Source of the DNA: Anaerolineales bacterium | Lineage (GTDB): Bacteria; Chloroflexota; Anaerolineae; Anaerolineales; Villigracilaceae | Reading direction: 5' to 3' | DNA: 47,245 nucleotides | NCBI GenBank assembly: GCA_013360875.1 | Contig: JABWAU010000014.1 | Span: forward strand, 1 to 47,245 | Shown: positions 9,824 to 11,657 of the stretch, in pieces | Layout of the letters: each line of letters begins with the position of its first letter | How positions within the stretch are numbered: position 1 is the first letter of the stretch | Made by a program: the position numbers and the translations under genes | The notes under the pieces: model-generated | Databases searched by the model: none | Told to the model about the DNA's origin: nothing | What the model saw: the letters and a program-made list of their open reading frames with translations, nothing else

Positions 9824-10669
9824 TTACGCTTCCTGCCGGATGTTTGGCTGCTCCGTCCTCGAGAAGCCGAATCTCGCCCCGAGCATTTTCACCATCAACC
9901 CCGCCCTCCAGAACGCGACCGCTGCCATCCCATGCGCAAGGACAGCGAATAATGGCGGCGTCTCGAGCGTGTAATACGTCCAGCATTCGCGGGTGGTTCC
10001 CCACAATTCGAGATAATATCCCAACCCTGAACCAGCGAGGAAGGTTAAGAGGGCAAAACGATGGTCGGTAGGAGTGAGGATGAGGAGGGTTGTGAGAATT
10101 AGGGCGAACCAGGTAAAGGATTTATCGAAGGTCGGGGAAACGAAGACCAGCATCAGGCTTAGGAAAGACGCGAAGGCGATCCAGTAGAGTGTCTTGAATG
10201 TGGAATCCAAAGTCTCCTGACTGTGGATGATCTCATGCCCAAACGTCTGGAGACGTTTGAGTCCGTAATCCAGGAGTCTGGTAATGCGATCAATGGATAA
10301 AGAAGCGATGGGCCAGGCGGGGATGATCCATAGCGGCGGGCGTTCATCGGTGTAGTACACCCATAGATTGGTCTGTGTTCCCCACGATTCGATGGCGAGT
10401 CCGCCGCAGACGCCGACGAAAATGATCAGTGAATCTGTTTTGAGGTTCGCGCGTGCGATGATCGTGACGGACATGAACGCGAAGATGCCGAGCAGCAGCC
10501 AGTCCATGTACCGCCACCATGCGCCGTTCCAATCCACGTAGGAAAGAACCTCCTCCGCCAGGGGCCACCAGATGTAGACGATGAGGAAAATGGTAACGAA
10601 AAACCCGCCGAGGAGGATGCTGCTGTCGCGGGTCCAAAACCTGGCAAGCGCCCGACGGATCGAAGACAT
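9824..10669 (-). CDS. Polytopic membrane protein with internal duplication
   Basis: A 281-aa protein with about seven hydrophobic segments. No family was recognised. Its two halves share a 20-residue motif with identical spacing, E-x-W-G-T-x4-W-x-Y-Y-T-x-E-x-P-P-L, at residues 94-113 and 221-240, each next to membrane helices. This indicates an ancient tandem duplication. The start at 10669 (MSSIRRALARF) is chosen because TATAAT lies 7 nt upstream, giving a leaderless message; the open frame to 10867 reads through non-coding sequence. It ends 18 nt before the -35 of the ABC-2 promoter, on the same strand. Conserved Trp, Tyr and acidic residues suggest a functional pocket near the membrane surface (inference). 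Confidence 0.8.
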   Translation of the reverse strand: MSSIRRALARFWTRDSSILLGGFFVTIFLIVYIWWPLAEEVLSYVDWNGAWWRYMDWLLLGIFAFMSVTIIARANLKTDSLIIFVGVCGGLAIESWGTQTNLWVYYTDERPPLWIIPAWPIASLSIDRITRLLDYGLKRLQTFGHEIIHSQETLDSTFKTLYWIAFASFLSLMLVFVSPTFDKSFTWFALILTTLLILTPTDHRFALLTFLAGSGLGYYLELWGTTRECWTYYTLETPPLFAVLAHGMAAVAFWRAGLMVKMLGARFGFSRTEQPNIRQEA

Positions 10670-10682: not shown

Positions 10683-10865
10683 GCAGGAGAGTTCGAAGGA
10701 TATCCGGTTCGGTAACGTTTTTGATGGAACGCGTGGGTAACAGTCGCTGCCGGGTATCTTATTCCTGTCAGGCGGGATTTTTCGATACGTTCGCGCCGCT
10801 CAACGCGCTCGGCGATTAATTGTTTTGTTGTGACTGTTCCCGTTGCATGCTGATTGGCAGGTCGC

Positions 10866-10930
10866 AAAACAAAACCTCGATGGATTTGACCTGCGCCGCG
10901 CGATTTTGTGCGACAGGTCCCATCGAGGTT
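10866..10930 (-). terminator. Terminator hairpin of the candidate small RNA
   Basis: An 11-bp stem (10873-10883 with 10920-10930, AACCTCGATGG type) continues past a 4-nt bulge into a 6-bp stem (10888-10893 with 10914-10919). On the minus strand it is followed by TTTTGTTTT; the plus strand has no T run after it. Confidence 0.75.
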
Positions 10931-10981
10931 GGTTCGTTAAATGATAACTGCCAGAGTGAGGGGGGCACCCTAGCAGTCATC
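10866..10981 (-). ncRNA. Candidate small structured RNA with its own promoter and terminator
   Basis: No family was recognised. Read on the minus strand it has a 5' hairpin of 16 consecutive pairs (10966-10981 with 10943-10958) closed by a 7-nt C-rich loop, a 12-nt linker, then a second hairpin ending in TTTTGTTTT. Three of the 16 pairs are G-U on the minus strand but would be A-C mismatches on the plus strand, which fixes the strand. A -10/-35 pair lies just upstream. Length is about 115 nt. It sits in a gene-free gap between tRNA-Arg and the duplicated membrane protein, all on the same strand. It is not a recognisable SRP RNA, tmRNA or 6S RNA. Confidence 0.6.
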
Positions 10982-10987
10982 GCCCAT

Positions 10988-11016
10988 ATATTACTACAAC
11001 ATCCCGGAAAATACAA
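10988..11016 (-). promoter_or_regulatory. Promoter of the candidate small RNA
   Basis: On the minus strand -35 TTGTAT (11016-11011), exactly 17 nt, -10 TAATAT (10993-10988). Transcription would start at about 10981-10983, the first base of the 16-bp hairpin. Confidence 0.6.
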
Positions 11017-11070
11017 GAGTTTTGCCTGAAGGATTTATTAGAAACCTGACAAATACGCCCCCGTATATAT

Positions 11071-11141
11071 GCCCCGGGCAGGAATCGAACCTACATCTAA
11101 GCCTTAGGAGTGCCTTGTTCTGTCCATTGAACTACCGGGGC
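11071..11141 (-). tRNA. tRNA-Arg, anticodon CCU
   Basis: The minus strand folds into a full cloverleaf: acceptor GCCCCGG/CCGGGGC, D stem GTTC/GAAC with GG in an 8-nt loop, anticodon loop CTCCTAA (anticodon CCT), T stem GTAGG/CCTGC with loop TTCGATT. The next base (11070) gives discriminator A, and CCA is not encoded. It reads AGG codons. The anticodon stem has one G-U pair and an A-G mismatch at the pair next to the loop (31-39). Confidence 0.93.
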
Positions 11142-11150
11142 GCGATGAAG

Positions 11151-11156
11151 ATTATA
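11151..11156 (-). promoter_or_regulatory. -10 box of tRNA-Arg
   Basis: TATAAT on the minus strand, 9 nt before the first base of the tRNA, the distance expected for a tRNA with a very short leader. No good -35 was found. Confidence 0.6.
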
Positions 11157-11267
11157 CCTCAAAGGAAACGATGCTTTGTTTTGCAGCCTGTGCCGGTAAT
11201 GCGCATCCCAAATTGACGCAGCGTTCCGGCGTTACAATCAACAAAACCCCATCCTCGGAACCGTCTC

Positions 11268-11657
11268 ATGAAAAAACTCATCACCGCCAAACTCGCAGGA
11301 GACCTCCTCCTCGCCTCCCTGGGATTACTGCTCATCTTCCACCTTCTCGTCCTCTTGAATTTCCTCCCTGCCGATATGATCTGGGGCGGACAAGCCAATG
11401 CAGACAATCCTGCTCTGGAGATCATTGCCATTGTTGTGACCATGTTCTTTGGCTGGATCGTTGCCGCAAAAACGGGATATGTCAAAGCGGGCAAATTCGC
11501 CGGGGCATTGCATGTCCTTGTCTGGATCGTTTTCGCATTTCTGTTGTTGAACACATTGGGCAATCTTGCCTCAGGCGTTTTCGTCGAGAACTTCATCTTT
11601 GCCCCCATCACGTTGATATTGGCGCTTTGCGCGCTCAGGCTGGCAGTTGAAAAGTGA
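11268..11657 (+). CDS. Four-helix membrane protein of unknown function
   Basis: A 129-aa protein with four hydrophobic segments: LLLASLGLLLIFHLLVLLNFL, EIIAIVVTMFFGWIVAA, GALHVLVWIVFAFLLLNTL and FAPITLILALCALRLAV. No family was recognised. It starts at ATG 11268 after a weak GGAA. A TACAAT box lies 29 nt upstream. It is alone on the plus strand between minus-strand genes, and its stop lies 1 nt from the end of the convergent TIM-barrel gene, with no terminator between. Confidence 0.75.
   Translation: MKKLITAKLAGDLLLASLGLLLIFHLLVLLNFLPADMIWGGQANADNPALEIIAIVVTMFFGWIVAAKTGYVKAGKFAGALHVLVWIVFAFLLLNTLGNLASGVFVENFIFAPITLILALCALRLAVEK

Follow-up and report, generated by a model that had tools for sequence, protein, structure and literature searches.

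An apparently undescribed, predicted small RNA with a conserved C-rich loop in genomes of Anaerolineales and in phage contigs

Does the gap beside a tRNA-Arg gene in this stretch of Anaerolineales DNA hold a small RNA gene, and if so, what would such an RNA do? Here, the window denotes the whole stretch that was analyzed, which is 47,245 nucleotides long. A preliminary description, made from its letters alone, had claimed that the minus strand carries a promoter with a 17-nt spacer, a hairpin of 16 pairs starting at the predicted first base, a linker, and a bulged terminator, and all of these parts are present in the sequence. It had placed them between tRNA-Arg and a membrane gene; the upstream neighbor on the same strand is indeed a tRNA-Arg(CCT) (11141-11070, minus strand), identified by an Rfam tRNA match, and the gene on the other side (10669-9824, minus strand) is an open reading frame whose 281-aa product has no Pfam match, which leaves the “membrane gene” unconfirmed. 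Neither of the flanking proteins (9824-10669, minus strand; 11268-11657, plus strand) had a Pfam match.

Read along the minus strand, the parts are arranged as follows. The -35 element TTGTAT (11016-11011), whose TTG occurs in 155 of 161 copies, is separated by 17 nt from the -10 element TAATAT (10993-10988), which ends 6 nt before the hairpin. The 5′ hairpin of 16 unbroken pairs (10981-10943) is supported by folding, covariation, and a covariance model match, and its first base, 10981, is the predicted transcription start. The hairpin displays a loop of 7 nt, CCCCCCU (10965-10959), which is the proposed seed, and is followed on its 3′ side by a conserved single-stranded ATTTAA (10942-10937), in which the three T and the last A reach at least 90% in the alignment. 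A bulged terminator stem (10930-10873), which was found by folding and whose sequence recurs only in the nearest relative, and a T-rich tail, TTTTGTTTT (10874-10866), complete the locus.

The minus strand folded at -58.5 kcal/mol, compared with a mean of -29.66 kcal/mol for shuffled sequences (z = -8.15), and none of 200 shuffles was as good. The plus strand folded at -49.3 kcal/mol (z = -4.77), and the 16-pair hairpin was absent from its minimum-free-energy structure. A simple scan for consensus promoters and terminators flagged neither element on the minus strand, owing to a weak -35 element and the bulges in the terminator stem. The case against chance is one of sequence comparison: it rests on conservation and not on the promoter and terminator scan.

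A DNA search at E ≤ 0.01 gave matches in 63 of 101 genomes, including the window's own; some of the weakest of these rest on short segments alone, in a few cases within the second stem. The hairpin was then assessed in a gap-free alignment of 31 hairpins from 30 loci (that of the window included), counted on 29 distinct rows. There, 99.6% of the 464 cells were paired, and double changes occurred at 9 of the 16 pairs. The 53 double-change cells compare with a shuffle mean of 13.3, and none of 500 shuffles reached as high a value on any of five measures; slid registers of the alignment scored far lower. A second set, chosen from named genomes by loop and tail alone, contained 102 distinct host hairpins, of which 92 had all 16 pairs and 100 had at least 15. 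The two sets are not fully independent: 10 of the 102 hairpins are identical to members of the first set, and some species are common to both. The preliminary description had inferred selection on the minus-strand RNA from three pairs of the window hairpin that are G-U on that strand. Across 119 distinct host hairpins, we counted 182 G.U cells and only 5 A.C cells, which indicates that selection acts on the minus-strand RNA and upholds that inference. Loss of pairing in homologous loci, which had been named as a refutation, did not occur; the homologues keep their pairs through compensation. As judged from these comparisons, the hairpin is a conserved RNA and the product of an apparently undescribed, predicted small RNA gene. 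A coding role is unlikely, since an ATG within the first 6 nt, as expected of a leaderless peptide, was found in only 23 of the 119 hairpins.

A covariance search in Anaerolineae had been proposed as a further check, and its outcome was supportive. The model matched the window with 72 bits (E = 1.2e-21; the window belongs to the training set), and at E ≤ 1e-4 it found matches in 237 of the order's 301 genomes (152 of the 175 good ones) and in 94 of 112 genera. Each matching genome had 1–11 matches, with reverse-strand echoes of the palindrome counted in. In a sample of the phylum, 39 of 400 genomes matched at E ≤ 1e-3, and 35 of these belong to the order. Four genomes outside the order matched; the four loci examined in three of them (L212, L215, L216, and L222) all lack a C6 loop and were counted as false, and the fourth genome (G184, E = 0.001) was not among the loci examined. 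A pattern scan of named genomes gave at least 119 loci. Among the matches listed, 117 are from Chloroflexota, 77 of them from Anaerolineales, one is from a Brevefilum without lineage, and one is labeled Candidatus Parabeggiatoa, a record that is probably, at a guess, a mixed bin. The carriers include both uncultured organisms and named cultured species, such as Anaerolinea thermolimosa IMO-1. The family, its strand, structure, promoter, and distribution, and the phage copies described below are all computed results.

The explanation that we prefer, and consider probable if only by a little, is that these hairpins form a family of trans-acting sRNAs of Anaerolineales that works without Hfq, reads G-tracts close to start codons by base pairing through its C6U loop, and has phage copies that act likewise. 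In this model, a sigma-70-type promoter would start transcription at the first base of the 16-bp hairpin, the hairpin would present CCCCCCU, and transcription would end at a local downstream terminator; in other genomes, the hairpin's own T-rich tail may serve instead. The loop would then block translation by pairing in trans, without Hfq, with G-tracts at start codons or in their vicinity. No Hfq was found by Pfam in the genome, which is 96.5% complete. Expression, G-tract pairing, and the identity of the targets are inferred only.

With regard to transcription, 138 of the 161 host and viral copies reached a promoter score of at least 10, compared with 11 among 483 places drawn at random from the same loci, which are mostly coding. 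The distance from the end of the -10 element to the start of the stem was 6–7 nt in 135 of the 161 copies. Possession of its own promoter and a defined start, a criterion of an independent sRNA gene, is met on consensus only. A terminator-like stem lies within 150 nt downstream in 52 of 161 copies, compared with 20 of 161 upstream control stretches, and 73 of the 161 hairpins carry a T-rich tail themselves. We infer, without expression data, that the length probably varies, from about 115 nt in the window to perhaps ∼50 nt elsewhere. It is also possible, though we lean against it, that the second stem (10930-10873) is only a terminator or intergenic sequence and that the functional RNA is the hairpin alone, of ∼45–60 nt. 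The restriction of that stem, with this sequence, to the nearest relative would fit such a short RNA, as would the T-runs that directly follow the hairpin in several divergent copies. However, the tail at the window locus is just ATTTAA, a poor terminator, and the excess of terminator-like stems over the upstream controls also argues for a longer transcript. This alternative concerns length and is compatible with the preferred explanation.

No part of the RNA is more conserved than the C6U loop, a feature on which the preliminary description had not remarked. The sequence GGGTG-CCCCCCT-CAC was invariant in all 31 aligned copies. Because the pattern scans fix the loop (and two of them also demanded the ATTTAA tail), they are blind to variation in it, which can be seen only in the alignment and in low-scoring model matches. 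Among 15 such matches inside the order, 11 had CCCCCCU, one had C7U, one had CCCCCUU, and two (L218 and L219) had no C-loop. In several low-scoring copies, the closing pairs were compensated (GGGCG/CGCCC, GGATG/CATCC, and CCTG/CAGG) and the C6U loop was kept. A stem that drifts around a loop that is held suggests that it is the loop that does the work. In two related genomes, L218 and L219 have a similar stem and ATTTAA with a loop that lacks the C-run; these may be a decayed or re-targeted paralogue.

The exposure of the C-run in an apical loop meets a criterion of sRNAs that target G-tracts with C-rich loops. G-tract pairing itself is the weak step of the model, inferred by analogy with B11/6C, sX13, and LhrC, and our searches for targets did not identify any. 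The motif GAGGGGG-N3-9-ATG was not enriched in carriers: it occurred 448 times against 280 for the control in 14 carriers, and 631 times against 228 in 12 genomes without a model match. In this comparison of 26 genomes, carriers thus exceeded their control by less than non-carriers did; the lineages are confounded, and we read it neither as avoidance nor as targeting. AGGGGGG-N3-10-ATG was scanned in four genomes, and the 38 sites of the fourth (G014) were left out of the reading of sites. Only 24 of the 77 sites in the other three (24, 34, and 19) open a frame of at least 60 aa in the stretch fetched. Only two homologous pairs were shared between genomes, one of which (L285/L332) apparently lies inside a gene, and no convincing common target emerged. 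Complements of the loop in the fetched loci were mostly the hairpin's own reverse strand. Outside the hairpin, host loci (L089–L207) contained AGGGGGG 43 times and its reversed control 75 times; the corresponding counts in viral loci were 39 and 35. The deficit in host loci could reflect avoidance of off-target pairing, although this was an unplanned test confined to the fetched loci.

These results leave room for a conserved sRNA whose hairpin binds a protein, through sequestration or in a ribonucleoprotein, without pairing to G-tracts of mRNAs. We consider this unlikely but not negligible: target searches found none, the loop and its three closing pairs do not vary in the 31 aligned copies, and a 16-bp stem suits a protein ligand. 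However, the divergent copies change the closing pairs and not the loop, which fits a single-strand reading of the loop, and known sRNAs with C-loops pair with G-rich mRNA motifs, according to two reports (PMC12395582; PMC3771888).

Whether the RNA acts in trans or in cis can be judged from its gene neighborhoods, in which genes were called by a simple ORF picker and one member per group was identified by Pfam. The tRNA-Arg neighborhood and the second stem are local to the lineage of the window and not general, which the preliminary description had missed. Among 164 copies, the recurrent upstream neighbor on the same strand was FtsK (17 copies), and the recurrent downstream neighbors were a RecN-like protein (25) and an aminotransferase class V (21), which were convergent in 44 of these 46 cases. 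Five loci (L117, L160, L166, L103, and L036) carry the sRNA in two or three tandem copies, each preceded by a promoter-like pair of its own, and four of these loci lie ahead of a SpoU methylase. A leader, attenuator, or terminator that acts in cis on the next gene would accord with the 17 copies (11 loci) that precede a same-strand SpoU methylase gene, some of them 24–37 nt from its called start, and with the T-rich tails counted above. Nevertheless, such a role is very improbable: among the 157 copies (host and viral) for which a downstream gene was called, 100 have it on the opposite strand, no one gene family is always downstream, and the tandem copies each have their own promoter-like pair. 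The opposite-strand downstream genes and the differing contexts speak for a trans-acting RNA rather than a cis-acting one.

Finally, an inverted repeat found at several places per genome in many genomes and carried by phages might be a palindrome that works as DNA (a REP element, the end of a mobile element, or a protein-binding site), but this is hardly tenable given the promoter at a fixed distance, the recurrent flanking genes, and the failure to meet the criteria for REP or mobile palindromes, namely no strand preference (182 G.U against 5 A.C) and high copy number (1–11 matches per genome).

The carriage of the RNA by phages escaped the preliminary description. A second copy in the window's own genome lies on a contig (C186) with genes for terminase, portal, protease, and major head protein, and consists of TTGACA-16-TATAAT, the hairpin, and a T-run. 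In viral contigs, 59 stretches contained GGGTGCCCCCCTCACYC and 21 had the loop-plus-tail pattern; the set used below was made non-redundant and comprises the 50 viral copies that form 12 or more of the 16 pairs, and the C186 copy was counted as host. Between the -35 and -10 elements, 25 of the 50 viral copies had the palindrome TAGAAC-N4-GTTCTA (at least 10 of 12 positions matched), compared with none of 157 host copies; an example is found at about 6840 of L071. Among letter shuffles, a score of 10 was reached by 1 of 500 for viral copies and by 3 of 1570 for host copies. The palindrome had been derived from the same viral copies before counting. Its absence from the other half of the viral copies and from the C186 copy counts against the preferred explanation. 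In the host lexA promoter (L380), a similar box, AGAACAGGCGTTCG, occupies the corresponding position between TTGACA and TATCAT, which makes LexA control of the phage copies plausible; such control is inferred, and a phage repressor is not excluded. The window's genome also has four exact AGAACNNNNGTTCT sites (G000 C54, C127, C130, and C182; L228–L231), some of them over a promoter-like stretch, and the genes beside them are non-SOS in appearance.

TerL was among the two nearest upstream ORFs (of at least 90 aa) in 23 of the 50 viral copies, where one member was identified by a Pfam match and the others by BLAST grouping. As judged by a loose pattern, 17 of the 50 are followed by a second RNA that has a terminator and a promoter-like pair of its own. 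It lies directly 3′ of the hairpin in L071, L072, L073, L075, L076, L078–L080, L084, L085, L343, L365, and L227 (714-800), where it has a 5′ stem (for example, GTCCTGG..CCGGGAC) and a GCGCCCG terminator that shows covariation. Of the 11 pairs of this terminator, 7 had double changes in 13 rows, and the 5′ stem lies outside the predicted consensus. No Rfam match at the gathering score was found in the 11 of the 13 loci scanned (L343 and L365 were not). The viruses probably infect Anaerolineales hosts, to which they are as yet unassigned. The phage copies, many of them beside packaging genes and half under a LexA-box-like operator, would probably reach the same targets after induction. Only tentatively, and with more doubt than conviction, do we propose the bolder reading that tailed phages carry the core riboregulator of the order beside terminase, under the SOS repressor and often with a second sRNA, so that DNA damage or induction would flood the host with a copy of the G-tract-reading RNA that it already has.

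Should the RNA prove to be a core regulator, it would give access to riboregulation in a phylum that is abundant and little studied. A family present in most sampled genomes of the order, with a nearly invariant seed and cultured carriers, can be put to the test at once, and phage copies under a LexA-like operator would exemplify viruses that carry a core RNA of their hosts. The near-constancy of the loop across the order and its viruses suggests a shared regulator that reads G-rich messages.

How does this RNA compare with those already known? At the gathering score, Rfam 15 gave only tRNA and no sRNA family in the window, and no match in 14 phage loci; the remaining weak matches in the window at E ≤ 10 were tRNA look-alikes or chance. 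The earlier remark that the RNA matches no class known to its author is borne out to this extent, and a match to a known family, which would have refuted it, was not found in Rfam 15. Nor did we find a description of a conserved sRNA of Anaerolineae in the literature searched, although most subscription papers were outside the reach of that search. Membership in 6C RNA (RF01066) was rejected: its model had no match at E ≤ 10 in the genome, and none in 10700-11200. The control for this model was weakly sensitive, with a signal below the cut-off in 4 of 14 genomes (including Corynebacterium glutamicum) and none above it. Moreover, 6C requires two C-rich stem-loops, whereas the window RNA has one C-loop, and its second stem is terminator-like with a loop that lacks a C-run.

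Like the window RNA, 6C and B11 of Actinobacteria are short sRNAs with C-rich loops, although they belong to another phylum and have two C-rich stem-loops instead of one, typically with six C each in 6C (PMC4046766). The C-rich terminator loop of B11 pairs with guanine tracks near ribosome binding sites, and 6C acts without Hfq, according to the title of the 6C paper cited there (PMC12395582). The present RNA may work like 6C although it is not a member of that family. HPnc5490 of Helicobacter, which is RepG, and sX13 of Xanthomonas share C-rich apical loops with the window RNA. In one report, sX13 represses mRNAs with G-rich motifs and does not need Hfq, and UCCCCCU occurs both in one of its loops and in HPnc5490 (PMC3771888). 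At 115 nt, sX13 is close to the length predicted for the window RNA, but it has three stems with three C-rich loops. LhrC and other UCCC-motif sRNAs of Firmicutes resemble this family in their C motif and multicopy nature. LhrC of Listeria pairs with G-rich sequence ahead of the start codon; it differs in that its UCCC sites lie in two loops and a linker, and phage copies are not mentioned in the accessible part of the source (PMC4132741). Phage-encoded sRNAs offer another likeness, as a phage genome with a small regulatory RNA gene that acts on host regulation is described in a further report (PMC12197685). In contrast to these, the family of the window also occurs in the majority of host-order genomes; many of its phage copies lie by terminase, and half of the copies have a LexA-box-like operator. 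Taken together, these results describe an apparently new RNA family whose presumed functional style is already known and which, unusually, occurs in both host and phage.
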